Assembly: GCA_004566265.1 (NCBI GenBank)
Contig: SPLB01000368.1
Location: 1 to 16,001, forward strand
Reading direction: 5' to 3'
From: Paracoccaceae bacterium
GTDB lineage: Bacteria; Pseudomonadota; Alphaproteobacteria; Rhodobacterales; Rhodobacteraceae
Length of the DNA stretch: 16,001 nt
Positions 758 through 15,893 of the stretch are shown piece after piece; positions within the stretch are counted from its first letter, which is position 1; each line of letters starts with the position of its first letter. The translations under genes and the position numbers were made by a program. Under the pieces are notes generated by a model. That model did no database searches. It was not told where the DNA came from and worked only from the letters and a program-made list of their open reading frames with translations.

Positions 758-1879
758 TCAGGACCACTGTGTGCTTGGCGAACCCAAAAGGTCCCGATCA
801 ATTCTTACACCCAAGCCCGGTTCGCTCGGGGGCACAACCCCCCCGTCCATTATCGGCGCTTCAAAATGTCCCGTCTGGACTGTAACCATCTGGCGAGGAT
901 CCAGGACGCAGCGGAGATACCGCTCCGGCACAGTGGCACCCATATGAAAGATCGATGCAGCAGAGAGGGTCGAGCCTACGGTGTCTTGGACGCTGATGGT
1001 CAGGCCTGCCGCCTGGCATATGTCGCGGTGACGGCGCGCGCGGGTCAATCCGCCTGCTTTTGAGATCTTGAGGCCGATGCCATCGGCTATGTCGAGACGC
1101 ACAAGTTTGGCGATATCGCCATCATCCTGGGCAAGTTCGTCAAGGATTATTGGCACATCGCAACGCTGCCGCAGAGACAAGGTTTCGTGCCATGTCGCAC
1201 AGGGCGCTTCAAGAACGAAATCAAGTTCGGATGGAAGCATGCGTAGCATTCGAAGTGCTGTTTCCGGTAGAAGACCTCCATTTGCGTCGACAATAAAGTA
1301 CTCGCCGGGTTGACGATCAGCGAGCGACGCGGTGATGCGTTCGGCGTCAAGCGCTGGACCACCTTCAGAATCCAGTGCGCCAACCTTAACAGAATGACCC
1401 ATAAAGCCTTTTGCACGATGCTCAGCGACACGGTTTCGCATGTCCTCGGGCACACCCGCATAGATCGAGCTTATTGCTGGCAGGCGGTTTCGTGTTGATC
1501 CCCCAAGAAGGGTGAATACAGGTAGGTCAACGGATTTGCCAAAGACGTCCCAACAGGCAAGATCGAGGGCTGATTTCGCGTGGTTATGGCCCGTCAATGC
1601 CTCATCCATAGCATCATTGATGCGATCAACCTCGCGCGGATCGCGACCGATCAGATGCGGAGCGATCTCTTCGATCCCGGCGCGGACGCCGCGTGCATGA
1701 GCTGCAATGTAGTTTGATCCAAATGGGGTGCTTTCGCCCCAGCCCTCAAGTCCAGTATCAGTTGTCAAGCAAACAATTACACTGTCGAAACCAGTATAAA
1801 TGCGTCCGCCAGAAAGTTCATAGGATCCACCCGAATAGGGCAAGTGTATTTCGAATAGTTCTATCTTGTTGATTTTCAT
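758..1879 (-). CDS. Mandelate racemase/muconate lactonizing enzyme family (enolase superfamily) protein
   Basis: A 373-residue enolase-superfamily enzyme of the MR/MLE class, full length for the family. It has an N-terminal capping domain (about 1-125) and a barrel carrying the expected metal ligands Asp198 (VDAN), Glu224 (LEAP) and Asp247 (ILDE). The two general acid/base lysines are Lys165 (HSVKVG) and Lys271 (GLKISKAGG). This two-lysine arrangement is known in 1,1-proton-transfer racemases and epimerases and in cis-3-hydroxy-L-proline dehydratase. The N-terminal half (GWGESTPFGSNY, LIGRDP, GHNHAKSALD) recalls hydroxyproline-betaine 2-epimerase and cis-3-hydroxyproline dehydratase. The C-terminal stretch around 320-332 (LRCVLDPRQMV) differs from what I recall of both, so the substrate is open. 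The start is set by an ATGA overlap with the upstream MDR stop and an AGGA seven bases before the ATG. A longer in-frame start at 1963 would lie inside the preceding gene. It probably processes a demethylated or chiral product of this pathway. Confidence 0.93.
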   Translation of the reverse strand: MKINKIELFEIHLPYSGGSYELSGGRIYTGFDSVIVCLTTDTGLEGWGESTPFGSNYIAAHARGVRAGIEEIAPHLIGRDPREVDRINDAMDEALTGHNHAKSALDLACWDVFGKSVDLPVFTLLGGSTRNRLPAISSIYAGVPEDMRNRVAEHRAKGFMGHSVKVGALDSEGGPALDAERITASLADRQPGEYFIVDANGGLLPETALRMLRMLPSELDFVLEAPCATWHETLSLRQRCDVPIILDELAQDDGDIAKLVRLDIADGIGLKISKAGGLTRARRHRDICQAAGLTISVQDTVGSTLSAASIFHMGATVPERYLRCVLDPRQMVTVQTGHFEAPIMDGGVVPPSEPGLGVRIDRDLLGSPSTQWS

Positions 1880-2970
1880 GATAAATCCTGTGGCGGGATG
1901 AGTACCAGCTGTCCCATATGGGATTTGGCCATAAACTCCTCTTGCGCTTTGGTGATATCGCACAATGGGTAAGTCTTTGCAACAACAGGGCGAATTTCGC
2001 CAGCTTCGATATAGCTGACAAGATTGCTAAAAACCTCATCCTCCTGAAATGTACAGCCAAACAGCGTAAGGTCTTTCAAGTAAAGGGTGCGAACATCGAT
2101 CTCGCATATTGGTCCAGCGATGGCGCCTGCGGTCGCATAGCGTCCACCTCGGCGCAGCACATCCAGTAAGCTCGGCCATTGGGCACCGGCCACCAGATCG
2201 ATAACGACATCGATACAGCCCTCGCCCAACTCAGCGACCAAATCGGCATCGCGGTCCAGGACCCGATCGGCCCCGAGCGCACGCACTGCCTCGGATTTTG
2301 ATGCGGAGCTAAGCGCGATGATATGCGCACCGCGTCTCTTAGCCAGTTGCACTGCGGCAGAGCCGACGCCGCCAGAAGCGCCCGTAACGAGCACTTTCTC
2401 AGCGCCCAGATTGACCCTGTGCAACATGTTTTCAGCCGTTGAGTAGGCGCATGGAATCGCGGCCAATTCTATGTCGTCCCAATCGCAGTCTACGGCATGT
2501 GTCTCACCCGATGGCGCAACACAGAATTGCGCGAACCCGCCATCGCATTCACTCCCAATAGTCCAGCATTCATAGGGACGGTAATCGACATATGTGCGGA
2601 GCATGTTGCGGACAATCACCCGCTCGCCGATCCGCCCGGCGTTTACGCCTTTGCCCACAGCGACGATATGGCCACAGACATCTGCGCCTTGAATGCGTGG
2701 GAAAGTCAGTGCGGTTCCAGACCAACTGGCATCCTCATCGTCAACTTTGTCAAAACCAGTTGCACCGCCTTTATTGGTGTCATCTGTCACGGTTTTGGAG
2801 TACCAGCCAATGCGCGTGTTTATGTCAGTATTGTTGACCCCAGCGGCGGCAACGCGGATCAGAACTTCGCCGTCCTTAGGCTGCGGTACGGCCACATCTG
2901 TTCGGTAGCTGAGCATTTCAATACCGCCATGTCCGGTTAGTAGCGCTGCGTGCATTGTGTTTGGGATCAT
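1876..2970 (-). CDS. Medium-chain dehydrogenase/reductase (quinone oxidoreductase-like, probably zinc-independent)
   Basis: A 364-residue member of the MDR superfamily (GroES-like domain plus Rossmann domain). The N-terminal segment AAAGVNNTDINTRIGWY aligns with the catalytic-zinc region of alcohol dehydrogenases but lacks the cysteine there, so this looks like a zinc-independent NAD(P)H:quinone or enoyl-type reductase. The nucleotide-binding loop is VLVTGASGGVGSAAVQLAK. The start chosen (MIPNTMHAALLTGHGG) has GGAG seven bases upstream. The longer frame to 3003 adds residues without family resemblance, and an internal Met five residues on (2955) is an alternative. A 113-bp gap separates it from soxG, the largest gap in the run, so it may have an additional promoter. 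Its stop overlaps the MR/MLE start by ATGA, so those two enzymes are likely co-translated and may act in consecutive steps. Substrate unknown. Confidence 0.9.
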   Translation of the reverse strand: MIPNTMHAALLTGHGGIEMLSYRTDVAVPQPKDGEVLIRVAAAGVNNTDINTRIGWYSKTVTDDTNKGGATGFDKVDDEDASWSGTALTFPRIQGADVCGHIVAVGKGVNAGRIGERVIVRNMLRTYVDYRPYECWTIGSECDGGFAQFCVAPSGETHAVDCDWDDIELAAIPCAYSTAENMLHRVNLGAEKVLVTGASGGVGSAAVQLAKRRGAHIIALSSASKSEAVRALGADRVLDRDADLVAELGEGCIDVVIDLVAGAQWPSLLDVLRRGGRYATAGAIAGPICEIDVRTLYLKDLTLFGCTFQEDEVFSNLVSYIEAGEIRPVVAKTYPLCDITKAQEEFMAKSHMGQLVLIPPQDLS

Positions 2971-3083
2971 GTCATTGCTCCAAATTAGGCACCAATGGCG
3001 CATTATTCAGCGGCCGATCCCATTGTGAAGCGTGGGGCGCTAGATGCCGCATTGATCGTAATTTATGAGTGCTCATTAATGTG
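2971..3083 (-). promoter_or_regulatory. Possible internal promoter/operator between soxG and the MDR gene
   Basis: This is the only gap above 100 bp inside the ten-gene run. It contains the dyad ATGAG-TG-CTCAT (3065-3076) in an AT-rich context, just past the soxG stop. The dyad is too short and lacks a following T-tract, so it is not a terminator. It could be an operator or a processing site. I see no strong -35/-10 pair. Function is inference only. Confidence 0.2.
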
Positions 3084-3647
3084 TCACCTCACTGATCGCA
3101 TAGCTGTAGTGATTGCGCTGTGCAGCGACGTAGCCGACGCACGCGGACCAAGAATGCGAACATTCGCGTTCGGTACACGGCAAATCACGAAACAACTCAG
3201 GTGATGTATCGACGTGCGCGCTGCGGAACCGGCACCGACCGAGCTCAGATTGATATTGCACAAAAGTTCCAACACCCTGTTGATCCGTTGGCCCGATAGA
3301 TCGAACGCGGACCATGCGTCTGTTTGCTCAGTGACCGATGCGGTATTGCCCAATGCGGCTTTGACATGAGCAGCGATGTCATTTTGGACTTCATATTCGA
3401 CTCCAACCATCCATTGATCGGGTCCGACCCACTTGGCAGAAAACGGACCGGTCAATTCGGCCTTGCCGGCAGCTGGCACGGTCCCAACAAGAGACGCCAA
3501 ACGCTCACGACAAGCAGCTTCGCCCCCTAACCTTGCTGCAACAGAGGCGAGGGCAAGGTTTGCTACCTCGGTGCAAGTGATGCCACCAATTGTTTCGACC
3601 TGGGGTTCAGATGCTCCAAGTGCCGTGATTGCGATCAGATCATGCAC
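3084..3647 (-). CDS. soxG: Sarcosine oxidase gamma subunit (heterotetrameric type)
   Basis: Gamma subunit of a heterotetrameric sarcosine-oxidase-type enzyme, about 187 residues, the normal size. The body reads as SoxG: LIAITALGASEP near the N-terminus, CTEVANLALASVAARLG, the WVGPDQW-type motif, and a C-terminal GAGSAARTSIHHL segment. In the family it folds like the folate-binding domain of SoxA and helps cover the active site. I choose the GTG at 3647 because a strong GAGGGGGAG lies seven bases upstream and the resulting VHDLIAITALG matches where family members begin. A TTG at 3674 would give a longer 196-residue form. The GTG overlaps the end of soxA by eight bases, so it is translationally coupled. 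Last of the four sox genes in the usual B-D-A-G order. Confidence 0.9.
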   Translation of the reverse strand: MHDLIAITALGASEPQVETIGGITCTEVANLALASVAARLGGEAACRERLASLVGTVPAAGKAELTGPFSAKWVGPDQWMVGVEYEVQNDIAAHVKAALGNTASVTEQTDAWSAFDLSGQRINRVLELLCNINLSSVGAGSAARTSIHHLSCFVICRVPNANVRILGPRASATSLHSAITTAMRSVR

Positions 3648-6585
3648 GCAAACGCTCCCCCTCTGGATCAACAAAATGAGCAGACGTTATCTCTACCTCG
3701 ACCGTCAGATCAGTCACCGGAGACGCCAGCCGCATCACTTCGCCATGCCGACTGCCACCATTTCTTAGGAAAGCCAGTCCGATCATTTTGCCAAGGGTCG
3801 GTGAATGGGCCGCCGAGGTCACATAGCCTTGGTCGTGGGCTGCATCTAACGGACCGTCCGCCGAGACCAGGTGCCCACCCGCTGTGATTTTGTCCTCTGC
3901 GTTCTTGGGTTGAACGCCAACCGCCATCAGCGCCTCAGCCTCATTGAGACCGGGACGTTCCGATAGTTTGGACCCGATACTGTCCTTCTTCTTCGACACC
4001 ATCCGCCCCATCCCAAGGTTCAGTGCCGTAGTGGTCCCATTCAGCTCATTGCCGGCCGCATGGCCTTTTTCGATACGCATCACGCCAAGTGCTTCGGTGC
4101 CATAAGGCACAACGTCAAACTCTTCGCCCTCGACCATCAATCGCCGCATCAGCGCATCGCCATATCGAGACGGCACCGCGATTTCATATGCAAGCTCGCC
4201 GGAAAACGAGATGCGGAACAGCCGTGCGCGAAGCCCGTTGCAGATGGTGATGTTGCCGCATGCCATGAAGGGAAACGCGTCGTTGGAGATGTCGAATGCC
4301 GGGTCGACAATCTTCTTTAGAAGTCTGCGGGAGTTCGGTCCCGCAACCGCGTATTGTGCCCAGGCCTCGGTGGTAGAAATGAGTTGCACATCCAAGTCCG
4401 GGAACAGGCATTGATGCACAAACTCCAAATGTTGATAGACCTTGGCAGCATTAGCTGTGGTGGTGGTGACTACAAAATGATCTTCAGCCAGACGTGCGGC
4501 GGTGCCGTCATCCATTGCAATCCCATCTTCGCGCAACATGAGCCCGTAGCGGGTCTTGCCAACCGCCAGTTTGGCGAAGCCGTTGCAATATACCTTGTTC
4601 AAGAAATCTGCGGCTTCGGTTCCCTGCACGTCTATTTTTCCAAGCGTTGTGCAATCGCACACACCTACCGAGGCGCGGGTCTGGCGCACCTCACGGTCAA
4701 CCGACTGCCGCCAATGTGTTTCACCATTGATTGGGAACCATTGGGCGCGAAGCCAGTTGCCGACCTCAACAAAGACGGCTCCACGTTCCTTGGCCCAATG
4801 ATGAGACGGCGTCAGGCGCACAGGCTTGAAATTCTTTCCCCGTGACCTTCCGGCCAGCGCTCCAATGGGCACGGGGGTGTAGGGAGGTCGATAAATTGTC
4901 GTGCCGACTTCTGGGATCGGCTTGCCCGCAAGCTCGGCCATGATAGCCAGACCACCAAGGTTAGATGTCTTTCCTTGATCGGTCGCCATTCCGAGTGTCG
5001 AATATCGTTTCAGATGCTCAACCGAGCGAAATCCTTCCTGATGGCTGAGTTTGACATCCTTCACTGTGACATCGTTCTGCTGATCCAGCCAGGCACGCTC
5101 GCAGCCTGCGACATACCAGAATGGCGTCTGAGTAACCGGGGCGTCTTCGGCTTCTGGGACGGCAGGAGGGCGCCCCCTTAGCCCAAGCGCCCGCCGCGCG
5201 GCTTGTTGGCCGGATTTTAGCGCACCGTGGGTCGAAAACTGCCCGTCGGCGGCCCCTGCGACATGCATACCGGGGGGAAGATCTTCACCGGGCAAGAATG
5301 CGGAGAGTGTTTCATTCCAGAGCGGGCGGCCCCGCTGGTGACACGTCAGGTGAACATTGGGATTCCAACCACCTGAAACCCCCAAAGCGCCGCATTCAAG
5401 CGTACGCATGCTGCCATCGGATTGTCGCACCTCGACAAACGTAAGCCCAAGACGTCCCGTCGTGTTTGCGACCTCTGCGCCAGCCAGTACTTCATAGTCG
5501 GTCGATCCCGGAGCGTCGGGGCGGGTGTCAATCACGGCGGCAATTTTGATGCCCAGCCTATGAAGATCTTGCGCTGTGCGGTGCCCATCATCGTTGTTGG
5601 TGAAAATTGAAACTTTCTTCGCTGGGGTGACGGCCCACCGGTTGGCATAGCTGCGCAGGGCCGAGGCCAGCATGATCCCGGGCCGGTCATTATTTTCGAA
5701 CGCGATCGGCCGCTCGGTTGCACCTGCACACAAGATCGTCTTCGCAGCCGTGATCCGCCACAAAATCTGGCGCGGTTTTCCCGGCGCGGGTTCTGCAATG
5801 TGGTCACTCACCCGCTCAAGCGCGCCATAGATTCCGTGGTCGAAGGCTCCGATCACAGTTGTGCGTGGCATCAGCCGGACATTGGGCAGGGTGGCAAGTT
5901 CAGCAACAACCTTTGTGACCCAGTCGGCCCCTGTCATATCATCAATCGTAAACCGCCCGCTGTTGAGCCGTCCACCCATTCGGAAGTCTTCGTCAGCGAG
6001 AATGACCTGCTTTCCTGCATGCGCAGCCGTAAGCGTTGCGGTTAGTCCGGCAGGTCCTGCGCCGATCACCAGCAAATCACAATGCTGGAACCCTTTGTCA
6101 TAGATGTCAGGGTCGGCCTGCATCGAGAGCGATCCGAGCCCTGCAGCACGGCGGATTATCGGCTCATATACACATTCCCAAAATGCAGCGGGCCACATGA
6201 AGGTCTTGTAATAGAAGCCGGCGGTCAAAAACCGGGACAGGCGATCATTGATCGCCATCACGTCAAAGGCCAGGGATGGCCAACGGTTCTGTGAGCGGGC
6301 GGTGAGCCCATCAAAGAGTTCCGCAGTTGTGGTACGTGTGTTGGGTTCTCGGCGCGCACCGCTGCGCAGTTCGACAAGGGCGTTGGGCTCCTCCGACCCC
6401 GCGGACATCAGCCCTCGTGGTCGGTGGTATTTAAACGATCGGCCCATCAACCGCACGCCGTTGGCAAGCAAGGCAGAGGCGAGAGTATCGCCGGGATGGC
6501 CTGAGAAGTTTTTGCCATCAAATCTGAAGGACAAGGTCGATTCTCGGTCTATCTGACCGCCTGTCAGTCGGTTGACCTGTGTCAT
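3640..6585 (-). CDS. soxA: Sarcosine oxidase alpha subunit (heterotetrameric type)
   Basis: A full-length 981-residue SoxA. The N-terminal ferredoxin-like domain (about 15-100) has the typical DTLASALLANGVRLMGRSFK region and, as usual for SoxA, no cluster cysteines. An NAD(P)/FAD-type domain follows with LLVIGAGPAGLTA (171-183) and GATERPIAFENNDRPG (288-303). A further family segment is near 508-542 (VKDVKL, LGMATDQGKTSN). From about 590 to the end lies a GcvT/T-protein-type tetrahydrofolate domain (HHWAKERGAVFVEVGNW, TTTTANAAKV, GELAYEIAVPS). In characterised enzymes the formaldehyde equivalent from the SoxB active site is captured here as 5,10-methylene-THF. The start is fixed by an ATGA overlap with soxD and a GGGG nine bases upstream. 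The amine substrate may be sarcosine or another N-methyl amino acid, given the altered SoxD partner. Confidence 0.96.
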   Translation of the reverse strand: MTQVNRLTGGQIDRESTLSFRFDGKNFSGHPGDTLASALLANGVRLMGRSFKYHRPRGLMSAGSEEPNALVELRSGARREPNTRTTTAELFDGLTARSQNRWPSLAFDVMAINDRLSRFLTAGFYYKTFMWPAAFWECVYEPIIRRAAGLGSLSMQADPDIYDKGFQHCDLLVIGAGPAGLTATLTAAHAGKQVILADEDFRMGGRLNSGRFTIDDMTGADWVTKVVAELATLPNVRLMPRTTVIGAFDHGIYGALERVSDHIAEPAPGKPRQILWRITAAKTILCAGATERPIAFENNDRPGIMLASALRSYANRWAVTPAKKVSIFTNNDDGHRTAQDLHRLGIKIAAVIDTRPDAPGSTDYEVLAGAEVANTTGRLGLTFVEVRQSDGSMRTLECGALGVSGGWNPNVHLTCHQRGRPLWNETLSAFLPGEDLPPGMHVAGAADGQFSTHGALKSGQQAARRALGLRGRPPAVPEAEDAPVTQTPFWYVAGCERAWLDQQNDVTVKDVKLSHQEGFRSVEHLKRYSTLGMATDQGKTSNLGGLAIMAELAGKPIPEVGTTIYRPPYTPVPIGALAGRSRGKNFKPVRLTPSHHWAKERGAVFVEVGNWLRAQWFPINGETHWRQSVDREVRQTRASVGVCDCTTLGKIDVQGTEAADFLNKVYCNGFAKLAVGKTRYGLMLREDGIAMDDGTAARLAEDHFVVTTTTANAAKVYQHLEFVHQCLFPDLDVQLISTTEAWAQYAVAGPNSRRLLKKIVDPAFDISNDAFPFMACGNITICNGLRARLFRISFSGELAYEIAVPSRYGDALMRRLMVEGEEFDVVPYGTEALGVMRIEKGHAAGNELNGTTTALNLGMGRMVSKKKDSIGSKLSERPGLNEAEALMAVGVQPKNAEDKITAGGHLVSADGPLDAAHDQGYVTSAAHSPTLGKMIGLAFLRNGGSRHGEVMRLASPVTDLTVEVEITSAHFVDPEGERLRA

Positions 6586-6866
6586 TTTGAACGCCCCTGA
6601 CTGCGTGCGACATCGCGTGCCAACTCCACCGAAGTGATTTCATGTGTCACGGTGTTGCGCGTTACGACCAGCCAGGACCGGTCGCCTGCCTCATGAAACC
6701 AAAGCTCGCGATGTGGACCCGCAGGATTGTCCCTCAGGTACGCATAGTCGTGCCAGTCTTGTGCACTTGCCGTCTCTGGGTCCGGACGATCAATCAGTGT
6801 GGCATCGCCCAGATAGATGAATTCGGAGCTGTCGCGCGGGCCAAGCAATGGGTGGTTTATCAGCAT
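6582..6866 (-). CDS. soxD: Sarcosine oxidase delta subunit, cysteine-free variant
   Basis: A 94-residue SoxD between soxB and soxA. The core is recognisable: EFIYLGDA (15-22), WHDYAYLRDNPAGPHRELWFHEAG (38-61) and RNTVTHE (70-76). Characterised delta subunits bind zinc through a CPxCG-type motif at the N-terminus and an HxxxC motif. Here the N-terminus is LINHPLLGP (one cysteine position is His5, the other Leu8). The second motif keeps His58 but has Asp62 where the cysteine should be. The protein contains no cysteine at all, so the zinc site is absent or rebuilt. It starts at a TGATG overlap with the soxB stop, lacks its own ribosome binding site, and ends in an ATGA overlap with soxA. This suggests a divergent Sox complex and possibly a different substrate. 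Confidence 0.92.
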   Translation of the reverse strand: MLINHPLLGPRDSSEFIYLGDATLIDRPDPETASAQDWHDYAYLRDNPAGPHRELWFHEAGDRSWLVVTRNTVTHEITSVELARDVARSQGRSK

Positions 6867-8122: not shown

Positions 8123-8129
8123 CCCCACC

Positions 8130-10550
8130 TCAACCGCGCAGGATCTTGCCGGCCGCGTCAAAGGGCGGTTCTGACAGGATCGTAGCTTTGTGTGGGCGGC
8201 CTAGAACCATGACATCGACATCATCCCCGGGGCCTGCATCTTTGACAAAGCCAAGGGCCAGAGACATGCCGACAGTATAGCCATAGGCACCGGACGTGAC
8301 GCGTCCAATGCCTTCACCGTTTTTGAAGATGGGTTCACCACCTGTGGCATCAGCGTTGGATGCGGTTACGTCCGCCTCATGTAAATGCAGCAGGACCAGT
8401 TGTTCGCGCGCGGTGTTGTTCAGCACATCCAGCGCAGCCTCTTTGTTGAGGAAGTCCTTCTCCATCTTGCACAGACGCTCCAGCCCGACCTCTTGGGGCC
8501 AGCATTCGGGGCTGTACTCTCGCGACCAGGAGCCATAGCCCTTTTCCACCCTGAGCGACATCAGCGCTCGGCTGCCCACCGGCCCTGCGTCAAATTCCTT
8601 CCCGGTCTGCAACAAAGCTTCATAGAGCTGCGCTTGATCTTCGGTCTTACAATGAAGCTCCCATCCAAGATCACCGGTGAAGGATACACGCAATGCCAGG
8701 CACTCCACATCCGCAAGTTCGATCATCTGAGACCGCATGAAGGGAAAATCGGGTGTCGCAAGAGAGGTATTTGTCAGCCGCTGCAGCAGATCGCGTGATT
8801 TGGGGCCCGCCACGTTAAAGCCGCATACGGCTTCGGTCATGCTTTCGAAGCTGGTCCCTTCCGGCAAGGGCACCTGCTTGAAGAACCGTTTGTGGTAGCG
8901 TTCTGCCAGACCGGAGCCGATGATCCAGAATTCATCTTCTGCCACGCGGGTAACAGTGAAGTCACCTGCAATGCCCCCGCGTTTGCCGACAAGCGGCGTC
9001 AAGCAAGACCGCCCCACAGTTTTGGGCATAGTGTTTGCAAAGATCGCATTGAGCCAATCGGCCGCATCGGGGCCTTTGCAGCGATATTTGGCGAAGTTGG
9101 AAATATCGATAATACCTGCGCGATCACGCAGCATCTTGCATTCCTCGCCCACCGGCCCCCACCAATTCTGACGCGTGAACCCGTTGGTGTCTTCAGTTCC
9201 CGGCGTATCGGCATACCATAAGGGATGTTCCCATCCGGCATTGAGCCCAAAAACCGCGCCCATGGACTCCTGCTTATCGTAGATCGGACGCGTGCGCGCA
9301 GGGCGACCGGCACTGCGCTCTTCGTTAGGGAAGTGGATCGAAAAACGGTGCGCGTACTGGTCCTGCACCCGCGCCATGGTGAAGTCTTTCGTCGTCCATG
9401 TGTCAAATCGTGCCATGTCCCAGGCGAACATGTCGTATTGAGTTTCACCTTCGATGATCCATTGGGCCGCCATCAGACCCATGCCGCCTGATTGCGAAAA
9501 GCCCGGGATGATCCCGTTGCAGCAAAAATATCCGTTAACCTCCGGGACAGGACCCATCAGAACGTTGGAATCCGGTGACCAAATCATCGGCCCGTTGATC
9601 ACGCGCTTTATCCCGGCCTCACCGACGGCCGGAACACGCTCGATCGCGTTCATCATGTTCTCTTCAATCCGCTCCAGATCGTCGGGAAACAGGTCATGAG
9701 CAAAGTCGAGCGGCGTGCCTTCTTCGGCCCAGAATTTCATTCCCCGCTCATAGGCACCGACCAATAGGCCCTGGCCTTCCTGTCGAAGGTAATATTCTCC
9801 GTCCCTGTCACTCACCGAGGGCAGGCGTGATCCGTGATCCTTTACATCCGCCATGGTCTCGGTCACAAAATACTGGTGCTCGGTGGGCTGCAGAGGCAGC
9901 TCAATCCCGGCAAGCGCGGCCACTTCGCGTCCCCAAAGACCGGCTGCGTTCACCACCCACTGGGTCTGGATGTCGCCCTTCGGTGTTTTTACGAGCCATG
10001 AGCCGTCATTTTGCTGTTCAGTCGCCGTTACAGGTGTGAACCTGTGGATTTCGGCCCCACGTTGGCGAGCACCTACGGCATAGGCATTGGTGACGCCAGA
10101 CGGATCGACATTACCACCGTCAGGTTCATACATGACGCAGCGGATACCGTCGTAGTTCACCATCGGGTTCAGCTTTTTCGCTTCATCGATGGAGACTTCA
10201 TAGAAGTTCATGCCATAAAGCTTAGCTTTGGCCGCTTGCAGTTTTAGTTGATGTTCCCGTTCTTCAGTTTGCGCCAGATAGAGCGATCCGGGTTGGAAAA
10301 TTCCACAGCTTTGGCCCGTTTCGGCCTCCAGCTCCTGGTAGAGGGTCATGGTATAGTGCTGAATGCGGCTGATATTCGTGCTGTCATGCAGCCCGTGAAT
10401 ATTTGCTGCTGCGTGCCAGGTCGATCCGGAGGTCAGTTCGTCCCGTTCAAGAAGCACGACATTGGACCACCCCAGTTTTGTCAGGTGGTAGAGAATAGAA
10501 CATCCGATAACGCCGCCCCCTATGACGACTGCCTGTGCCTCTGTTCGCAT
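8130..10550 (-). CDS. Dimethylglycine/sarcosine dehydrogenase-like FAD oxidoreductase with GcvT domain
   Basis: An 806-residue protein with the architecture of dimethylglycine dehydrogenase. The N-terminal DAO-type FAD domain has VVIGGGVIGCSILYHL (8-23). The STWHAAAN segment carries His46, at the position where eukaryotic DMG dehydrogenase attaches FAD covalently. A middle FAO_M-like linker is followed by a C-terminal GcvT aminomethyltransferase-type folate domain from about residue 430 (DRAGIIDISNFAKYRCKGPDAADWL, with GDLGWELH and VGSRALMSLRVEKGYGSW). Family members oxidise an N-methyl group and pass the one-carbon unit to tetrahydrofolate. In this operon it sits between the Rieske oxygenase (first demethylation) and SoxBDAG, so removal of the second methyl is the simplest role. 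Paralogues act on sarcosine or other N-methyl amines, so the substrate is not certain. The stop is seven bases before soxB. Confidence 0.93.
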   Translation of the reverse strand: MRTEAQAVVIGGGVIGCSILYHLTKLGWSNVVLLERDELTSGSTWHAAANIHGLHDSTNISRIQHYTMTLYQELEAETGQSCGIFQPGSLYLAQTEEREHQLKLQAAKAKLYGMNFYEVSIDEAKKLNPMVNYDGIRCVMYEPDGGNVDPSGVTNAYAVGARQRGAEIHRFTPVTATEQQNDGSWLVKTPKGDIQTQWVVNAAGLWGREVAALAGIELPLQPTEHQYFVTETMADVKDHGSRLPSVSDRDGEYYLRQEGQGLLVGAYERGMKFWAEEGTPLDFAHDLFPDDLERIEENMMNAIERVPAVGEAGIKRVINGPMIWSPDSNVLMGPVPEVNGYFCCNGIIPGFSQSGGMGLMAAQWIIEGETQYDMFAWDMARFDTWTTKDFTMARVQDQYAHRFSIHFPNEERSAGRPARTRPIYDKQESMGAVFGLNAGWEHPLWYADTPGTEDTNGFTRQNWWGPVGEECKMLRDRAGIIDISNFAKYRCKGPDAADWLNAIFANTMPKTVGRSCLTPLVGKRGGIAGDFTVTRVAEDEFWIIGSGLAERYHKRFFKQVPLPEGTSFESMTEAVCGFNVAGPKSRDLLQRLTNTSLATPDFPFMRSQMIELADVECLALRVSFTGDLGWELHCKTEDQAQLYEALLQTGKEFDAGPVGSRALMSLRVEKGYGSWSREYSPECWPQEVGLERLCKMEKDFLNKEAALDVLNNTAREQLVLLHLHEADVTASNADATGGEPIFKNGEGIGRVTSGAYGYTVGMSLALGFVKDAGPGDDVDVMVLGRPHKATILSEPPFDAAGKILRG

Positions 10551-10573
10551 GATTGGTCTTTCTTCTTTCCGGG

Positions 10574-10813
10574 TTAAAACTCTAGACGGATTGCGCGACC
10601 GTAGTCCGTCAGGCGCTTGTTAAGGGGGTTGGCCTGGGGCGCGCCGGCTTCCAGCGCAAACACAAAGGCATGGGTTAGGAAAAAGCAGGCTGCATCGACG
10701 TCTTGTGACTTTTCGGCCTCGTCCCCGGCGAGGGTATAAAGACGCACAAGCTCATCTAATTCGTGTTTTTCGTGCGCTTGAAGCAAAGCGGTTTCGAGTA
10801 CGTTTCGGTCCAT
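10574..10813 (-). CDS. Small hypothetical protein within the betaine-demethylation operon
   Basis: A 79-residue acidic protein, MDRNVLETALLQAHEKHELD at its start. I do not recognise a named family. It appears almost wholly helical, with regularly spaced leucines and alanines (LVRLYTLAGDEAEKS, AACFFLTHAFVFALEAGAP), recalling a single helical-repeat unit. There is no signal peptide and no clear membrane helix. Support for a real gene: it starts three bases after the aldehyde dehydrogenase stop, has AAAGGGTAG upstream overlapping that stop, ends 23 bases before the next start, and its composition is protein-like. A role as a small accessory or assembly factor for the adjacent dehydrogenases is conceivable but not shown. 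The long antisense frames here are shadows. Confidence 0.8.
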   Translation of the reverse strand: MDRNVLETALLQAHEKHELDELVRLYTLAGDEAEKSQDVDAACFFLTHAFVFALEAGAPQANPLNKRLTDYGRAIRLEF

Positions 10814-10816
10814 CGA

Positions 10817-12268
10817 CTACCCTTTGAGAGATATCGCGATGTTTTTCGTGCGCACGTAATTGTAGAGCGCTTCCAAACCTTTTTCGCGACCAAAACCGGA
10901 TTTGCCGACACCGCCAAACGGGGTGGCAATCCCACCTGCGAACCATTCGTTGACGAACACCTGACCAGCGCGCAGCTTTCGCGCAACCCGGTGTGACCGC
11001 GCCAGGTCCCGAGTGAATACGCCTGCAACCAATCCGAATTCTGTCCCATTCGCCATGGCAATGGCTTCGGCTTCGGTGTCAAACGGAGTCATGCAGGCGA
11101 CGGGCCCAAAGATTTCTTCTTGTGCAACCCGGCTCGATGGGTCCACATCGGCCAGGATTGTCGGCGCCATGAAGTACCCTTTACAGTCTATGCGCGCACC
11201 ACCTGCCGCAATCCGCGCACCATCCTGCTTGGCTGTCGAGGTTATGTCTTCGATCCGTGCGAGCTGTTGTGCTGAAATGACTGGTGTGTGGACTGGGTTA
11301 TCAAGACCATGACCGACACTCAGACCGTTGGCGAGGGCGGCAGCACACTCCACTGCCTCATCATAGATTGAACGATGAACTAGAACGCGTGCCATTGCGG
11401 AGCAGACCTGGCCTGCATTGTAAAAAATTCCGCTTTGCAGGCTGGACATGAGAGTATCCAGGTTGGCGTCTTCAAAGACCACCGCAGCCGATTTGCCGCC
11501 CAACTCCATCAGCGCCGGTGTCACCGTGTCGGCGGCGGCATGCAAGATAGCCTGTCCCGTCGGGATCGAGCCAGTAAAGACGATCTGATCGATCTCGGAA
11601 CTCGCTACGAGTTTGGCCCCCAGTTCGGCGCCTATGCCATTGAGGATCGATACAGTGCCTGCTGGGACATCGGCCCGTTCCAATGCAAGTCCCAGCATGG
11701 CCAATCCGATGGGATCAAGTTCAGGGGATTTGATGACGGTTGAATTGCCTGCGGCCATGGCTGGGGCGAGTGAGCGCGCTGCCAGTGAGACGGGAAAATT
11801 CCATGGTACGATCTGGGCTGAGATGCCAAAAGGCTCATAAACCGTGTAGTCAGCATAGTCAGGACCTAACGGGATCGACTTACCTTCGATCTTGTCAGCA
11901 ACGCCACCGTAATACTCAAAATATTGCGCAGCCTCTTCAAACTCGTCAAAAGCAGCTTCGAGTGATTTGCCGCTTTCGCGGCAAAGGAGGGCCGAACCTT
12001 CGTCAGCAATACCCCGGATCTCCTGTGCGACCCGTAGAAGCAGTCGCCCGCGCGCTGAGGGTTGCATGTCACAAAGATCGCCGCGATCGAATGATTTTCG
12101 GGCGGCTTCAATCGCCCTTGCAAGGGTTGTCTCTCCAGCTTCAGCACAATCGGCAACATGCTCGGCAAGGCCCGGATCTTCAACCGCGATAGCTCTACCT
12201 TCATCGCCGTCAACCCATGAGCCAGCAAGGAAATTCCTGGCCAACCCATCCTTCAAATAGGTACTCAT
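10817..12268 (-). CDS. NAD(P)-dependent aldehyde dehydrogenase
   Basis: A 483-residue class I/II-type aldehyde dehydrogenase of normal length. Visible active-site elements are IVPWNFP with Asn157, VIKSPE with Lys180 for coenzyme binding, FTGS (231-234), MELGGKS with general base Glu255, and NAGQVCSAMARVLVH with nucleophile Cys289. EEIFGPV and PFGGVGKSGFGREKG lie near the C-terminus. The start MSTYLKDG is fixed by an ATGA overlap with the Rieske stop; a longer frame from 12304 lies inside that gene. Relatives include betaine-aldehyde and gamma-aminobutyraldehyde dehydrogenases. Being second in the operon directly after an oxygenase that releases formaldehyde, it may oxidise formaldehyde or an aldehyde derived from the betaine substrate. 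Sequence alone does not separate these. Confidence 0.94.
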   Translation of the reverse strand: MSTYLKDGLARNFLAGSWVDGDEGRAIAVEDPGLAEHVADCAEAGETTLARAIEAARKSFDRGDLCDMQPSARGRLLLRVAQEIRGIADEGSALLCRESGKSLEAAFDEFEEAAQYFEYYGGVADKIEGKSIPLGPDYADYTVYEPFGISAQIVPWNFPVSLAARSLAPAMAAGNSTVIKSPELDPIGLAMLGLALERADVPAGTVSILNGIGAELGAKLVASSEIDQIVFTGSIPTGQAILHAAADTVTPALMELGGKSAAVVFEDANLDTLMSSLQSGIFYNAGQVCSAMARVLVHRSIYDEAVECAAALANGLSVGHGLDNPVHTPVISAQQLARIEDITSTAKQDGARIAAGGARIDCKGYFMAPTILADVDPSSRVAQEEIFGPVACMTPFDTEAEAIAMANGTEFGLVAGVFTRDLARSHRVARKLRAGQVFVNEWFAGGIATPFGGVGKSGFGREKGLEALYNYVRTKNIAISLKG

Positions 12269-13419
12269 GCGGTTCGACCGTTCGCTATCTGTGTCGCGAC
12301 CCAATGATGGAAATTGTGCGTTGGCCCATCCATTGCCGGAGAAAAGCGCCCACCGTCGAATAACTCACCGTGGCGACCTTTCTGCATGCCTTCGACAACA
12401 AAGACGTCTTCTTCAAACACCGTCTTCCAGAGCTGGGCATTCGCCCCGCGCAAGCCGTCATGTTCAGGCGAGTCCTTCTCGGATTTGGCATAGTAAAGTT
12501 CGATATGCTCAACTGTGTTGCCGCAATCCTTGGGCTCTAGCACGATGGCAAAGCTGTGGTCGCGCTGGATACCGAACAGGACGTTTGGGTAGAGGGCGAT
12601 GTATTCAGCGCCTTTATCCCATTTGTCGCTGAGCCCATCGAAATCTGGAAGTGTTTGGCCGTCCTCGTCCGTCAACTGCCGATAGACGAGCGTGCCCTGG
12701 CCGGAATAATGGCCGCGTTTTTCGATATTATAGTGATCTTCCAGCCGTGAGTAGCTGTTCAAGCCTGGATGCACCCAAGGCAGATGATAGCTTTCACAAT
12801 AGTTCTCAACTGCAAGCTTCCAATTGGTCGCCACTTCGAGCTTGAAACTGGAGCTTTCACCCCCATGGTGAATCGGCCGATCGAACTCTTTCCAGCGATT
12901 GAGCAACTCGCCGTGCACGTCCTCAAAGGCAGGGGCATTGCCGTCAATATTCACGAAGATCACGTCGCGCCAGATGTAGGAGCGGATCCGGAACAGTCCA
13001 AGCTTGCCCATATCCACATCGTCATGGGTATTCTGACCTGGGCCGCCGACATGAGGTGTCGCGCGCAATTCGCCATCAAGACCATAACACCAGCTGTGAT
13101 AAGGGCAGCGTATCGCGCCTCGGATTTTTTGTGGCTTATCGATAAGTACCATGCCGCGGTGACGACAGGTGTTCTGAAAGACACCAATTGATCCATCTCG
13201 ATCCCGGACCAGCAAAATTGGCATGCCGAGGAAGTCGACAGGTTTCGCATCTCCGGTTTCGGGAATGTCTTTTCCAAAGCCGACGCCAGCCCAGTTTGCA
13301 TATAGAACTGAACGCTTTTCCTCATGAAAAACGTCCGGGTCGACATAGTGTTCGTTAGGCAGGCCGTTGGCAGTGTTTACTTCTGCCAGCACTGAAGAGA
13401 GGTTGCTGTGCTTGTTCAT
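12265..13419 (-). CDS. Rieske-type oxygenase alpha subunit, quaternary-amine N-demethylase (GbcA/stachydrine demethylase-like)
   Basis: A 384-residue terminal oxygenase. The Rieske [2Fe-2S] ligands are Cys85 and His87 (TCRHRG) with Cys105 and His108 (CPYHSW). The catalytic domain has NWKLAVENYCESYHLPWVHP (199-218), giving iron ligands His212 and His217, with Asp338 (EEDVF) as the third. Glu209 sits where classical ring hydroxylases use Asp to bridge the two metal centres. Glu there is characteristic of the quaternary-ammonium Rieske group (GbcA, carnitine CntA, stachydrine demethylase). These enzymes hydroxylate an N-methyl group, which is lost as formaldehyde. No beta subunit is nearby, consistent with the alpha-only quaternary-amine enzymes. 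The start has GGAGAGA six to nine bases upstream. The overall sequence looks nearer to stachydrine/betaine demethylases than to CntA, but the substrate is inferred. Confidence 0.94.
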   Translation of the reverse strand: MNKHSNLSSVLAEVNTANGLPNEHYVDPDVFHEEKRSVLYANWAGVGFGKDIPETGDAKPVDFLGMPILLVRDRDGSIGVFQNTCRHRGMVLIDKPQKIRGAIRCPYHSWCYGLDGELRATPHVGGPGQNTHDDVDMGKLGLFRIRSYIWRDVIFVNIDGNAPAFEDVHGELLNRWKEFDRPIHHGGESSSFKLEVATNWKLAVENYCESYHLPWVHPGLNSYSRLEDHYNIEKRGHYSGQGTLVYRQLTDEDGQTLPDFDGLSDKWDKGAEYIALYPNVLFGIQRDHSFAIVLEPKDCGNTVEHIELYYAKSEKDSPEHDGLRGANAQLWKTVFEEDVFVVEGMQKGRHGELFDGGRFSPAMDGPTHNFHHWVATQIANGRTA

Positions 13420-13519: not shown

Positions 13520-14419
13520 TCAAGCCTTGCGCGCACCATTTAACAACCAGTTTTTGAGGGCGAGGGCGTTACATGACAACTGGTCATCAGGCAGTCCGGC
13601 AAGATAGAATTGATTGGGTGCAGGAATGGACTTTGTTCCCACAATTTGAAGCTTTCCACTATCTAGCATTGGTTGCACCAATCGTTGCCAGCCAAGAGCG
13701 ACCCCAGCCCCCTTGCGTGCGATTTGCAGTGCTACAGAATAGCTGTTCACTCGTGTTCCCGTTGAAATATCACCATTATGACCCAATTGAGCAAACCACT
13801 CTGACCATTTGGTCCAATTGGTGTTGGGTGTGTCTAGGTGAATGAGCCGTTGCCGAGCCAGTTGCGCAAGACTGTGATCGCGGAGCTTCAGCGCCAAATC
13901 GGGGGCTGCCACGGGCACAAGTGCGTCGCGATAGATCGGGGTTTGTTCGAGAGTTGGGTTTTGTTCCTTTCCGTAACAAATGAATAGGTCAAAGTCTCTG
14001 GTGTTCTGAAAAGGTCGATCTTGGGTTACCTGATGCACATTGATTTCGGGGTATTCGCGCCAGAAATCGATAACTGCAGGTGAAAGCCATAGTGCAGCAA
14101 CTGCGGTGGTCGAACCAACCGTCACGGCAGCGGCATCACCATTTCTACGTATCCGAGCGAGCTTTCGAGATATCAGTCGAAAAGCCGAAGCGAGGGATTC
14201 AAAGAGGTCTTCACCCTCGGGAGTTAGCTCAACGCCTCTGTGTTTGCGTAGGAAAAGAATTGTCCCGAGTTCGCCTTCCAACGCCTTGATCTGGTGGCTT
14301 ACTGCACCGGGGGTAACAGACAATTCCTGTGCCGCATCCTTGAAACTCAAATGCCGCGCTGCGGCCTCAAAGACCGAGAGTGTGGTAAACGGAGGAAGGT
14401 CATAATGGCGTCGCGACAT
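13520..14419 (-). CDS. LysR-family transcriptional regulator (GcvA-like)
   Basis: A 299-residue LysR-type regulator. The N-terminal winged helix-turn-helix occupies about residues 6-65 (LPPFTTLSVFEAAARHLSFK, DAAQELSVTPGAVSHQIKAL). This is the GcvA-like pattern, followed by the usual substrate-binding domain to the C-terminus (GVALGWQRLVQPML near the end). It sits between the minus-strand operon and the plus-strand reductase, with its own promoter facing the reductase promoter, so it most likely controls both. The effector is probably the betaine substrate or a demethylated intermediate; this is inference. The ATG at 14419 has only a weak ribosome binding site, and a dyad lies directly upstream (14432-14455), suggesting autoregulation. 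Confidence 0.92.
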   Translation of the reverse strand: MSRRHYDLPPFTTLSVFEAAARHLSFKDAAQELSVTPGAVSHQIKALEGELGTILFLRKHRGVELTPEGEDLFESLASAFRLISRKLARIRRNGDAAAVTVGSTTAVAALWLSPAVIDFWREYPEINVHQVTQDRPFQNTRDFDLFICYGKEQNPTLEQTPIYRDALVPVAAPDLALKLRDHSLAQLARQRLIHLDTPNTNWTKWSEWFAQLGHNGDISTGTRVNSYSVALQIARKGAGVALGWQRLVQPMLDSGKLQIVGTKSIPAPNQFYLAGLPDDQLSCNALALKNWLLNGARKA

Positions 14420-14720
14420 GGGTACTAACCAAGTTGGGGTTATTTCACCTCAACTGTATATGATAATTTTCCGAATTGAACCAGTCCTTCAATTGTTCTT
14501 GTCTATTGCTCAGGGAGGACGAGCCGGTGTCACACGCCTATGCGAGTGATCGAGATCCTGCTGATGGCAGGCACCTTCCGGCTTGATGAATACCGGTGAG
14601 AGTTTTGTGGGGGCGATTGCAGGGCACAAGAACCATCTGAAATCGCTTGGGTAGCCGGAGATCGAAGCGTCTCTCCGCGGCGCATGGTCTTGCAGCCTGT
14701 TGCAGAAATGAGGGAGTTGG
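14420..14720. promoter_or_regulatory. Divergent control region and 5' leader between LysR and reductase genes
   Basis: The 301-bp space between divergent genes holds a 9-bp inverted repeat, AGTTGGGGT-N6-ACCTCAACT (14432-14455, one mismatch), a plausible LysR site. On the plus strand TTGAAC (14476-14481) is a possible -35, with poor -10 candidates around 14500-14507. The reductase ATG is preceded by GAGGGAG. If transcription starts near 14510, the leader is about 200 bases long, with a 22-codon frame (14586-14654) that lacks a good ribosome binding site. I see no riboswitch fold that I can name. Confidence 0.4.
14432..14455. promoter_or_regulatory. Inverted repeat AGTTGGGGT-N6-ACCTCAACT upstream of the LysR gene
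   Basis: The 9-bp arms pair with one mismatch and begin 13 bases upstream of the LysR start codon, within the divergent promoter region. LysR-type regulators commonly repress their own gene and activate the divergent one from a site in such a position. Binding by this regulator is inference. Confidence 0.4.
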
Positions 14721-15665
14721 ATGAATACACAGATTGCCAGACTGGTAAGAAAGACTGCGCTCAGCCCGGACACCACCGACTTTCTCTTTGAGGTTAAGGA
14801 CGGACGTTTCGCCGGGCTCGAAGCCGGCGCACACATAGATGTTCATCTTGGCAAAGATCTTGTCCGGCAGTATTCGATTTGGAGCTGGACCCAGGACGGA
14901 CGCTGCCTGAACGTTGCAGTGAAACGCGAGGACGAAGGGAGAGGGGGCTCCCTGGCAATGCACGCGCTCGAAGCCGGAATGCTTGTCCAGATCGGCGGAC
15001 CGCGCAACCATTTTCACCTGCAACCCGCAGACCGCTACGTCGCGCTCATTGCAGGCGGTATTGGCGCGACGCCAATTGTAGCGATGGCCCGCGAGTTGCT
15101 GAATACAGGGCGCAACTTTCAGGTCATCTATCTGGTTCGAAGTAAGGGCCTCGCAGCCATGGACGCCAAGTTCCGAGCGCTTGGAATCGATGAATGGTAC
15201 CGGCTGCACTGTGACGACAAAGACGGACAGCTCGATTTTAAAGCGGTCCTGCGTGATCTGCCCGTGGACAGCGACGTTTATACTTGTGGTCCAGAGCCGA
15301 TGCTAAATGCGGTCCTGGAAGCCGGGTCGAACATGCGCGGCGGGACAATTCATTTCGAACGCTTTTCAGCAGCTAGTGACCAAGACCGCGATGAAAGCTC
15401 AGAGTTCGAGGTCGAGATCAAATCCAGCGGCGCTGTTTTTGAAGTCGGAGCGGAAGAAACCATCCTCTCTGTGCTCAATTCAAATGGGGTGCCTATCGAT
15501 TTCGGCTGCTCTGAAGGATTGTGCGGAACCTGCATGGTGGACGTGTTGGAGGGTGAGGTTGATCACCGTGACGCCATTCTGACCCCTGACGAACAAGCCA
15601 CAAACCAATTTATGTGCACTTGCGTGTCCCGCGCTAAAAGCAAGCGGCTCGTGCTGGACCTTTAA
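14721..15665 (+). CDS. Flavin/2Fe-2S oxidoreductase, reductase partner of the Rieske oxygenase (GbcB/CntB-like)
   Basis: A 314-residue reductase with phthalate-dioxygenase-reductase domain order. The flavin-binding barrel (about 1-100) has RQYSIWSW. The NAD(P)H domain has IAGGIGATPIVAMAREL (110-126) and YTCGPEPML. The C-terminal plant-type [2Fe-2S] domain has Cys263, Cys268, Cys271 and Cys301 (CSEGLCGTC ... CVSRAKSKRLVLDL). Such proteins carry electrons from NAD(P)H to the Rieske centre of quaternary-amine oxygenases, matching the oxygenase encoded at 12265-13419. The ATG follows GAGGGAG at good spacing. Unlike many gbcA/gbcB pairs next to each other in one direction, this gene is transcribed away from its oxygenase, separated by the LysR gene. 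The transporter remnant begins 30 bases after its stop and was probably co-transcribed. Confidence 0.94.
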   Translation: MNTQIARLVRKTALSPDTTDFLFEVKDGRFAGLEAGAHIDVHLGKDLVRQYSIWSWTQDGRCLNVAVKREDEGRGGSLAMHALEAGMLVQIGGPRNHFHLQPADRYVALIAGGIGATPIVAMARELLNTGRNFQVIYLVRSKGLAAMDAKFRALGIDEWYRLHCDDKDGQLDFKAVLRDLPVDSDVYTCGPEPMLNAVLEAGSNMRGGTIHFERFSAASDQDRDESSEFEVEIKSSGAVFEVGAEETILSVLNSNGVPIDFGCSEGLCGTCMVDVLEGEVDHRDAILTPDEQATNQFMCTCVSRAKSKRLVLDL

Positions 15666-15695
15666 CGAAAAAAAGAAATCCAACGGAGAGGACAA

Positions 15696-15893
15696 ATGTC
15701 AATAAAACCACCATTTACCGATCTGGCGATCAATCGATCCCAGAAAGGGTTCTACGAAGGGCATTCGGTTGAAATTGCCTTGCTCAGCAAGGCAATCATG
15801 GTCGGCCTGGTCTTGTGCGCTGATATGGCCGGCAAACGCCAATGGGGTGTTGGGAAGCATTAGTGGAGCGCTTCTGGAGCTATTCAACAGAGG
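15696..15893 (+). pseudogene. Truncated and frameshifted BCCT-type betaine/carnitine/choline transporter
   Basis: The ATG at 15696 has GGAGAGGAC upstream and opens MSIKPPFTDLAIN, followed by EIALLSKAIMVGLVL, the start of a first membrane helix. In the starting frame the sequence degenerates after codon 40 and stops at 15861-15863. Moving by one base at about 15817 restores ALIWPANANGVLGSISGALL and ELFN, which continues the BCCT N-terminal pattern (first helix, then a WP-x-N region before the second helix). This implies either a one-base insertion or a two-base loss near 15816. The match ends near 15890, where an IS3-family element begins. The gene is therefore broken twice. It sits directly downstream of the reductase and would fit as the uptake system for this pathway. 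The family call rests on about 65 residues, so it is good but not certain. Confidence 0.7.

Follow-up and report, generated by a model that had tools for sequence, protein, structure and literature searches.

Introduction

Betaines are an important source of nitrogen and carbon in the sea, where the fate of proline-type betaines is poorly known. The question raised by the locus described here is which compound is degraded by an operon that combines several N-demethylating enzymes with an MDR reductase and an MR/MLE enzyme. The locus lies in a stretch of 16,001 nucleotides, here called the window (contig SPLB01000368.1, assembly GCA_004566265.1), from a Paracoccaceae bacterium; the host is a marine alphaproteobacterium. 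Judged from its genes, the operon probably removes methyl groups from a betaine, and its two terminal enzymes, which elsewhere accompany genes for hydroxyproline-betaine breakdown, point to a putative route for proline-type betaines. This reading is built on gene content, gene order, orthologies and genomic associations, from which the individual reaction steps are inferred.

Organization of the Locus

The genes listed in an earlier note on this DNA, namely a Rieske oxygenase with its reductase, a DMGDH-like protein, SoxBDAG, an MDR reductase and an MR/MLE enzyme, were all recovered with Pfam and NCBIfam. The reductase gene (14721–15665, forward strand), an FAD/NAD/2Fe-2S (FAD/Fer2) protein by Pfam with a 68% relative of PDR/VanB type at the same place in Phaeobacter, diverges from a reverse-strand series in the order LysR, Rieske, ALDH, a 79-aa gene, DMGDH, SoxBDAG, MDR and MR/MLE. 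The LysR-type regulator (13520–14419, reverse strand) was assigned by Pfam and NCBIfam. Adjoining the reductase is a broken BCCT transporter gene (15696–15888, forward strand), frame-changed and truncated, which tblastn with the BCCT protein of locus L129 matched as two pieces in different frames; it ends before the start, at about 15955, of a transposase-like reading frame read from the sequence (15955–16001, forward strand), which we take to be IS3-type.

Because relatives have parts of this arrangement too, chance does not account for the layout. When 61 Rieske loci and 80 MR/MLE loci were compared, the complete set with SoxBDAG within it was seen only in the window: a SoxA of at least 60% identity lies near the Rieske gene in 1 of the 61, which is the window itself, and near MR/MLE in none of the 80. 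The loci were drawn from two genome sets that overlap in part (L039 and L128, for example, have identical Rieske proteins and are probably the same record) and are not independent.

The Rieske Oxygenase and Its Companions

Identity of the Rieske oxygenase (12265–13419, reverse strand; Pfam) with GbcA was rejected, its score on the GbcA model NF058607 being 108 bits against a curated cut-off of 670; for scale, another Rieske protein, in P. onubensis, reaches 511 bits. The closest solved relative is the carnitine monooxygenase CntA (107 bits). All 61 homologs share an E-S-Y-H-L-P-W-V/I-H motif that aligns with CntA, and the bridging residue is Glu, as in CntA (E205). The group V enzymes CntA and Stc2 bear a Cys-X-X-Cys pair beside the mononuclear iron, whereas the pair occurs in none of the 61 homologs and is replaced by Ser and Leu in the window (E-S-Y-H-L). 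According to passages of one paper, the pair is found in "some" group V members and is hence not strictly defining (PMC10952381).

A further difference from group V is a small partner gene. The 79-aa gene (10574–10813, reverse strand) between ALDH and DMGDH, absent from the earlier gene list, emerged with a codon-position ORF caller; a small TPR-like gene of this kind accompanies the Rieske gene in 60 of the 61 loci. The predicted model of the protein (pLDDT 95.6) consists of four helices, and a fold search against the PDB returned no match at E 0.001, with TPR proteins among the best.

The ALDH (10817–12268, reverse strand; frame open to 12304), whose likely start overlaps the Rieske stop, was identified by Pfam; it is BADH-like and scores 403 bits on TIGR01804, cut-off 669. 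Its presence bears on the possibility that the substrate is acyclic, i.e., a beta-hydroxylated trimethyl amino acid, a carnitine-like compound or an N-alkyl dimethylglycine, and that C-N cleavage by the Rieske enzyme yields the aldehyde for ALDH. The proximity to CntA, whose product is given as malic semialdehyde in the part of the source concerned (PMC10952381), would suit such a substrate, and three demethylases would match three N-methyls. However, ALDH is absent from several Rieske-DMGDH operons (L123, L129, L130, L132, L133, L135), two kinds of Rieske enzyme come with related ALDHs, in keeping with a shared product, for example formaldehyde, and the MR/MLE subgroup and its neighbors are of proline type. 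An acyclic substrate is thus considered quite improbable.

Resident Demethylases and the Glycine Betaine Alternative

The DMGDH-like FAD/folate dehydrogenase (8130–10550, reverse strand; FAD/GCV_T) has the DAO-FAO_M-GCV_T-GCV_T_C domains and resembles solved DMGDH (PDB 4P9S, 586 bits); its NCBIfam matches include no DMGDH model, and its role on a DMGDH substrate is predicted. It is the ortholog (68–88%) of a resident DMGDH-type enzyme in 31 of the 34 family genomes tested. The SoxBDAG cassette is ordinary and stands alone elsewhere. All on the reverse strand, SoxB (6866–8122; frame open to 8161, likely ATG 8122) and SoxA, of the sarcosine oxidase alpha family (3640–6585), lie above their curated cut-offs (TIGR01373, 683.5 against 529 bits; TIGR01372, 1327 against 1164 bits), and SoxD (6582–6866; Pfam SoxD) and the SoxG-like subunit (3084–3647; frame open to 3674) lie below theirs (TIGR01374, 91.5 against 116.5 bits; TIGR01375, 49 against 144 bits). 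SoxG was assigned with the aid of relatives, and its start at 3647 was assumed from the overlap in plasmid relatives, which are annotated as sarcosine oxidase; the best plasmid SoxA relative is at 81%. The Rieske clade is present as a single copy in 170 of 394 family genomes, from which 40 loci were taken for comparison.

The idea that three classes of demethylase reflect three demethylations of an unusual trimethyl compound is not supported by these distributions, and HpbD, HpbA or a close MttB was found at none of 24 more distant Rieske loci used as controls. The co-occurrence of the three enzymes as proof of a trimethyl substrate is ruled out by the orthology of DMGDH. Since DMGDH is a resident ortholog and SoxBDAG ordinary, the demethylases alone would fit a path from glycine betaine to glycine. 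The known route (GbcAB, DMGDH/DgcAB, SoxBDAG) has the same order of reaction types and close DMGDH and SoxBDAG relatives, but its Rieske enzyme is far from that of the window and it offers no place for MDR or MR/MLE.

The operon may therefore hold two jobs under one regulator, in which Rieske, DMGDH and SoxBDAG convert glycine betaine through DMG and sarcosine to glycine and the terminal pair catalyzes a separate or loosely related reaction, possibly from its own promoter. The gene junctions are relevant here. Of the translational coupling claimed for the operon end, the overlap of MDR and MR/MLE (ATGA, 1876–1879) stands, but no such coupling links MDR to soxG: 113 bp separate the soxG stop from the likely MDR start codon (ATG at 2970, with GGAG seven bases ahead of it), and a promoter-like match precedes this ATG at 3029–3002, although the window has 10 such matches against 8.9 expected by chance. 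Phaeobacter, moreover, carries a Rieske-ALDH-hyp80-DMGDH set without the pair in the 29 kb shown, with BCCT and SoxBDAG near by. On the other side stand the failure on the GbcA model and the 17 loci, among 80, in which pair and Rieske clade occur together; these 17 comprise several layouts, but a single one of Leisingera type accounts for 13. In the portions of one study concerned, R. pomeroyi handles glycine betaine by MtgBCD, and few marine bacteria are reported to have gbcAB homologs, Citreicella SE45 being one that does (PMC12478193). Two separate jobs are a serious possibility, if short of a probable one; in that case a glycine-betaine oxygenase would have been overlooked by the GbcA model.

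The MDR-MR/MLE Pair

The MDR reductase (1876–2970, reverse strand; frame open to 3003) was identified with Pfam, NCBIfam and PDB 4J6F (298 bits), and lacks the Cys of the usual zinc site. The MR/MLE enzyme (758–1879, reverse strand; Pfam) matches PDB 2PS2 (496 bits) and 2PCE (457 bits), which, like 4J6F, bear generic names only. NCBIfam, PDB matches and the residue table assign it to the subgroup that contains HpbD and cis-3-hydroxyproline dehydratase. The metal ligands D198, E224 and D247 and the Lys bases K165 and K271, the D/E/D ligands and two Lys bases of the MLE subgroup of the enolase superfamily, are present in 14 of 14 aligned rows. Ligands and bases are shared with the dehydratase LhpJ, which we take to be the protein of 4MGG, and the dehydratase model NF043002 is the best NCBIfam model of MR/MLE; the score, however, is 311 bits against a cut-off of 500 (L162, annotated as this dehydratase, reaches 710), the motif at 298–305 is different, and the window enzyme has an MDR partner. 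With respect to HpbD (35–37%), Leu replaces Trp320, which is kept in 3 of 3 HpbD rows and is taken to bind the quaternary ammonium of the betaine. Without this Trp and below the dehydratase cut-off, neither substrate nor reaction follows from the family assignment.

The MDR-MR/MLE pair is a conserved unit, with MDR in 69 of 80 MR/MLE loci and adjacent in 63. Its strongest partner in an unbiased genome count is HpbD, the hydroxyproline/proline-betaine epimerase (534 bits to 4E8G/4IZG/4J1O, 484 bits to 2PMQ/4H2H): among the 394 family genomes, MR/MLE occurs in 10, HpbD in 18 and both in 6 (p about 7e-7), as neighbors in 5. HpbD is present in 24 of the 80 MR/MLE loci, and HpbD, HpbA or a close MttB in 26, 3 of which also have the Rieske clade. 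The neighborhoods contradict a constant companionship of pair and Rieske clade, since the pair usually occurs without these demethylases and MR/MLE lies near the clade in only 2 of the 10 family genomes that have it. The earlier note had held that finding the pair elsewhere without demethylation genes would count against its proposal; strictly, 63 of the 80 loci (several on short contigs) have no member of this Rieske clade, yet in its place 23 of these 63 bear HpbD, HpbA or a close MttB. Among 64 MR/MLE loci of at least 14 kb, 17 had no betaine-type enzyme at the thresholds used.

Several layouts illustrate the association. In Leisingera, MttB-HpbD, hydroxyproline-type genes and Rieske-ALDH-hyp80-MDR-MR/MLE form one stretch; in P. 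pantotrophus the order is HpbA, the pair, and a betaine-binding protein; and in M. amorphae it precedes a gene resembling trans-3-hydroxyproline dehydratase (354 bits against a curated cut-off of 550). Sulfitobacter SK012 has a second version of the set, with divergent Rieske, ALDH, DMGDH, MDR and MR/MLE genes (Rieske 26%, MDR 51%, MR/MLE 37%). In the window's own genome (67.8% complete), HpbD was not found, HpbA was represented by a 32% relative not counted as such, and MttB by a partial 42% match. What survives of the amino-acid-betaine proposal is therefore the occurrence of the pair in proline- and hydroxyproline-betaine islands of many relatives and the subgroup of MR/MLE.

These data could also mean that MR/MLE is an HpbD-like racemase or epimerase for a proline-type betaine, with MDR reducing a later intermediate. 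The enzyme keeps its two Lys bases and every metal ligand, HpbD is the strongest neighbor, and LhpJ itself epimerizes according to part of one report (PMC5144071). A second epimerase would, however, be redundant where HpbD is present, the cation-binding Trp is absent, and the frequent pairing with a reductase fits a dehydratase better, which makes an epimerase unlikely.

A Candidate Route for Proline-Type Betaines

The reading we prefer, which is plausible though held with less than even confidence, is that the operon is composite and serves the breakdown of a proline-type betaine, most likely a hydroxylated one, in which demethylation is followed by dehydration by MR/MLE and reduction by MDR towards proline. 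The Rieske oxygenase and its reductase would take one N-methyl off the quaternary ammonium as formaldehyde, which ALDH would consume; the DMGDH-like enzyme and SoxBDAG would move the remaining N-methyls onto tetrahydrofolate. MR/MLE would then abstract the alpha-proton and expel the beta-hydroxyl of a 3-hydroxyproline-type acid, and the zinc-less MDR would reduce the unsaturated or imine product towards proline or N-methylproline. As for precedent, LhpJ, an MLE-subclass enzyme, dehydrates cis-3-hydroxy-L-proline in addition to epimerizing it (PMC5144071, in part), and a hydroxyproline betaine, its isomer unspecified in the passages concerned, occurs in marine plankton holobionts (PMC11965087). 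That 3-hydroxyproline betaine is a natural marine substrate is a putative part of the scheme. Homarine, considered as a possible substrate, gained no support: in the one paper found to name both homarine and Rieske, homarine appears in a reference title only, and the titles listed include none on a homarine pathway.

The closest known systems are the hpb clusters for hydroxyproline betaine and proline betaine (HpbD, HpbA, HpbB1C1), reportedly described in 2013 (Zhao) and 2014 (Kumar). Like the window, they combine an MR/MLE enzyme with Rieske and flavin N-demethylation, and those of relatives contain the pair; unlike them, the window lacks HpbD and HpbA, for which DMGDH and SoxBDAG may stand in, and its Rieske enzyme belongs to another clade.

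A broader proposal, possible but rather doubtful, is that the pair is an undescribed dehydration-reduction module, distributed from Alphaproteobacteria to Actinobacteria, that converts a betaine of 3-hydroxyproline type, or the demethylated compound, to proline or proline betaine with MDR as enamine/imine reductase, and that in the window has joined a new Rieske clade and its TPR-like partner in one operon. Should the pair act in the proposed way, a function is gained for a widespread enzyme group whose solved relatives have generic names only, and the Rieske clade becomes a testable quaternary-ammonium oxygenase. In locus L052, a 2OG-Fe(II) oxygenase gene directly precedes MDR and has no place in the proposed scheme.

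Organization of the Locus

The minus strand of the window carries genes for LysR, the Rieske oxygenase (12265-13419), an ALDH, a 79-aa protein (10574-10813), a DMGDH-like flavoprotein (8130-10550), SoxB, SoxD, SoxA, SoxG, the zinc-less reductase MDR (1876-2970) and the enolase-superfamily enzyme MR/MLE (758-1879), and a FAD/Fer2 reductase is encoded on the plus strand. The likely ALDH start overlaps the Rieske stop, MDR and MR/MLE overlap by ATGA (1876-1879), and the gap of about 113 bp between soxG and MDR contains a promoter-like match, the number of such matches being close to chance. A broken BCCT transporter gene, detected 3' of the reductase gene as two tblastn pieces in different frames (15696-16001 region), is cut off before a transposase-like start in the same region, so the operon in the window may be without its own importer. 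The window is the entire contig C230 of a source genome of 1.97 Mb that is 67.8% complete. Both Rieske (E 1e-120) and MR/MLE (E 1e-110) were absent from G293, the sole other genome of the same genus sampled, and the locus may therefore be accessory.

Demethylation Enzymes

The closest solved structure to the Rieske oxygenase is carnitine monooxygenase CntA (107 bits), and its score against the GbcA model (108 bits) lies below the cut-off of 670. The iron-site motif ESYHLPW[VI]H was present in 61 of 61 Rieske homologs (among their loci, L039 and L128 are probably one record counted twice). CntA and Stc2 are described as having a Cys pair (PMC10952381), which was found neither in the window Rieske nor in any of the 61 homologs. 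One Rieske copy per genome was detected in 170 of 394 genomes of the family Rhodobacteraceae; LysR lies upstream of it in most closer relatives, and DMGDH of at least 60% identity lies near it in 12 of 61 loci.

Orthologs of the DMGDH-like protein (68-88% identity) were found in 31 of the 34 genomes tested, the exceptions being G197, G231 and G300, and the ortholog in G078 is partial, at a contig end. Among 20 further DMGDH loci, 12 showed a paired paralog (42-46%) with DMGDH in otherwise ordinary chromosomal surroundings, and the pair was not seen in the other eight. The DMGDH-like protein is therefore resident in the family, and dimethylglycine itself may well be its substrate. For R. pomeroyi, a DMGDH and a sarcosine dehydrogenase are reported whose locus numbers are close, SPO3400 and SPO3396 (PMC4744692).

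Plasmid records matching the window SoxA numbered 310, of which 177 were below 60% identity; the 20 best shared 71-81% identity with it, and the three best are SoxBDAG cassettes. Neither Rieske nor DMGDH was annotated within 12 kb of these three, in a plasmid gene table that is incomplete. About 10 kb separates SoxBDAG from the DMGDH that belongs to the Rieske set in Phaeobacter piscinae. The earlier note had matched Rieske, DMGDH and SoxBDAG to three successive demethylations of a trimethylammonium compound; with DMGDH resident in the family and SoxBDAG an ordinary cassette, these enzymes by themselves demand no new substrate. Their orthology suggests that they could serve glycine betaine, which fits an operon with two jobs, in which the demethylases act on glycine betaine and MDR-MR/MLE is separate. 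We rate this alternative as only slightly less likely than the composite proline-type pathway discussed below.

Genomic Company of the MDR-MR/MLE Pair

Across 84,980 species genomes, 282 relatives were confirmed by a pattern scan. Among the best 80 loci obtained from these, which are not phylogenetically independent, MDR (at least 60% identity) occurred in 69, adjacent in 63, DMGDH (at least 60%) in two and SoxA (at least 60%) in none. The Rieske clade of the window was present in 17 of the same best 80, 13 of them with one Leisingera-type layout. The betaine-pathway markers HpbD, a hydroxyproline/proline-betaine epimerase (at least 50%), HpbA (at least 45%) and MttB (at least 70%) were found in 24, five and eight of these best 80 loci, respectively, and any of the three in 26, compared with none of 24 control loci around distant Rieske at the same thresholds. 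At looser thresholds, some betaine-type enzyme was present in 50 of the best 80, representing 31 of 57 genus labels taken from record titles; for loci of at least 14 kb the count was 47 of 64, with 17 lacking one, and when Rieske was left out of the markers it was 31 of 64 versus 2 of 24 controls.

The 394 family genomes contain MR/MLE in 10, HpbD in 18 and both in six (hypergeometric 7e-7), where the two are neighbours in every case except G200. Rieske occurs in nine of the 10 MR/MLE genomes (p 0.003; exception G352), within about 12 kb on the same contig in only two (G000 and G086). The HpbD call rests on 534 bits to 4E8G/4IZG/4J1O and 484 bits to 2PMQ/4H2H, solved chains which we take to be characterised hydroxyproline-betaine and proline-betaine enzymes. 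Titles on such enzymes appear among the references of PMC5144071. No mention of the MDR-MR/MLE pair was found in the accessible portions of the open-licence literature searched. The company of the pair argues for proline-type betaines, and a composite proline-type betaine pathway is our tentative reading, somewhat short of an even chance; proline-type and glycine-betaine roles may also both be true in one operon.

Residues of MR/MLE and MDR

All 14 MR/MLE rows retain the metal ligands and the two Lys bases. At the place of the betaine-binding-site Trp of HpbD (three of three rows), all six rows of the window's MR/MLE group have Leu or Val, whereas the Sulfitobacter MR/MLE (also noted for L089) has Trp; at 298-303, Q-[DE]-x-x-G-S in the group of the window stands where HpbD has D-D-x-W-G-G-D. 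The group is separate in a quick tree (support 99, with long branches elsewhere in the tree), and the MR/MLE reaction cannot be read off these residues and the tree. MDR has Asn at the position of the first Cys of zinc enzymes. Among its relatives in NCBIfam are quinone reductase and alcohol dehydrogenases, and also reductases of crotonyl-CoA and acryloyl-CoA.

The Small Protein Beside the Rieske Oxygenase

A small TPR-like protein of about 79 aa, without a family name, is conserved with the Rieske clade: its gene lies just 3' of Rieske, directly or past ALDH, in 60 of 61 loci (exception L144). Its AlphaFold model has four helices (pLDDT 95.6); a PDB search returned nothing at E 0.001, with TPR domains among the best hits, and Pfam gave no well-fitting family. 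The protein may assist Rieske as a partner in folding or in electron transfer. In more distant relatives, Rieske and the small gene adjoin genes which we read as ilvB and ilvH; both of these gene families occur in 19 of 28 loci (L134-L161). In L138-L161, from many Rhodobacteraceae, single-copy Rieske and the small gene stand beside ilvBH-like genes, usually without an obvious partner oxidase nearby.

Islands in Relatives

MDR-MR/MLE loci occur, for example, in Leisingera S132, in P. pantotrophus with HpbA, so named by the record, and in Shinella with a betaine-binding protein; a further stretch noted here is L164:6304-12978 (P.). A second Rieske/ALDH/DMGDH/MDR/MR-MLE set, with a different Rieske, occurs in Sulfitobacter SK012 (Rieske 26%, ALDH 50%, DMGDH 33%, MDR 51%, MR/MLE 37%). 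The ALDHs kept with these two kinds of Rieske are related, which hints at a common product, for example formaldehyde. A second family of Rieske/DMGDH/MR-MLE sets was observed at L089:2554-12386 and L163:4564-12624, with a class III aminotransferase last.

A TetR-like regulator gene, of which the window has none, lies directly 5' of MDR or HpbD in L007, L008, L018, L044 and L047 (8359-8907), the L047 protein being below the Pfam cut-off. Two SDR genes follow HpbD at L047:12242-13701, and similarly in several islands (L018, L044 and others). M. amorphae has two MR/MLE genes of the window's type, along with ProX and a trans-3-hydroxyproline-dehydratase-like protein (354 bits, below the cut-off of 550). 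In this species, MDR-MR/MLE is preceded at L166:4882-7614 by a protein of the sterol-desaturase family together with a 2Fe-2S protein and an FAD oxidoreductase, which may represent a third type of oxygenase. A 2-oxoglutarate/Fe(II) oxygenase directly 5' of MDR at L052:7768-8772 may replace Rieske as demethylase or fall outside the scheme; its clustered family recurs elsewhere in L070 and L083.
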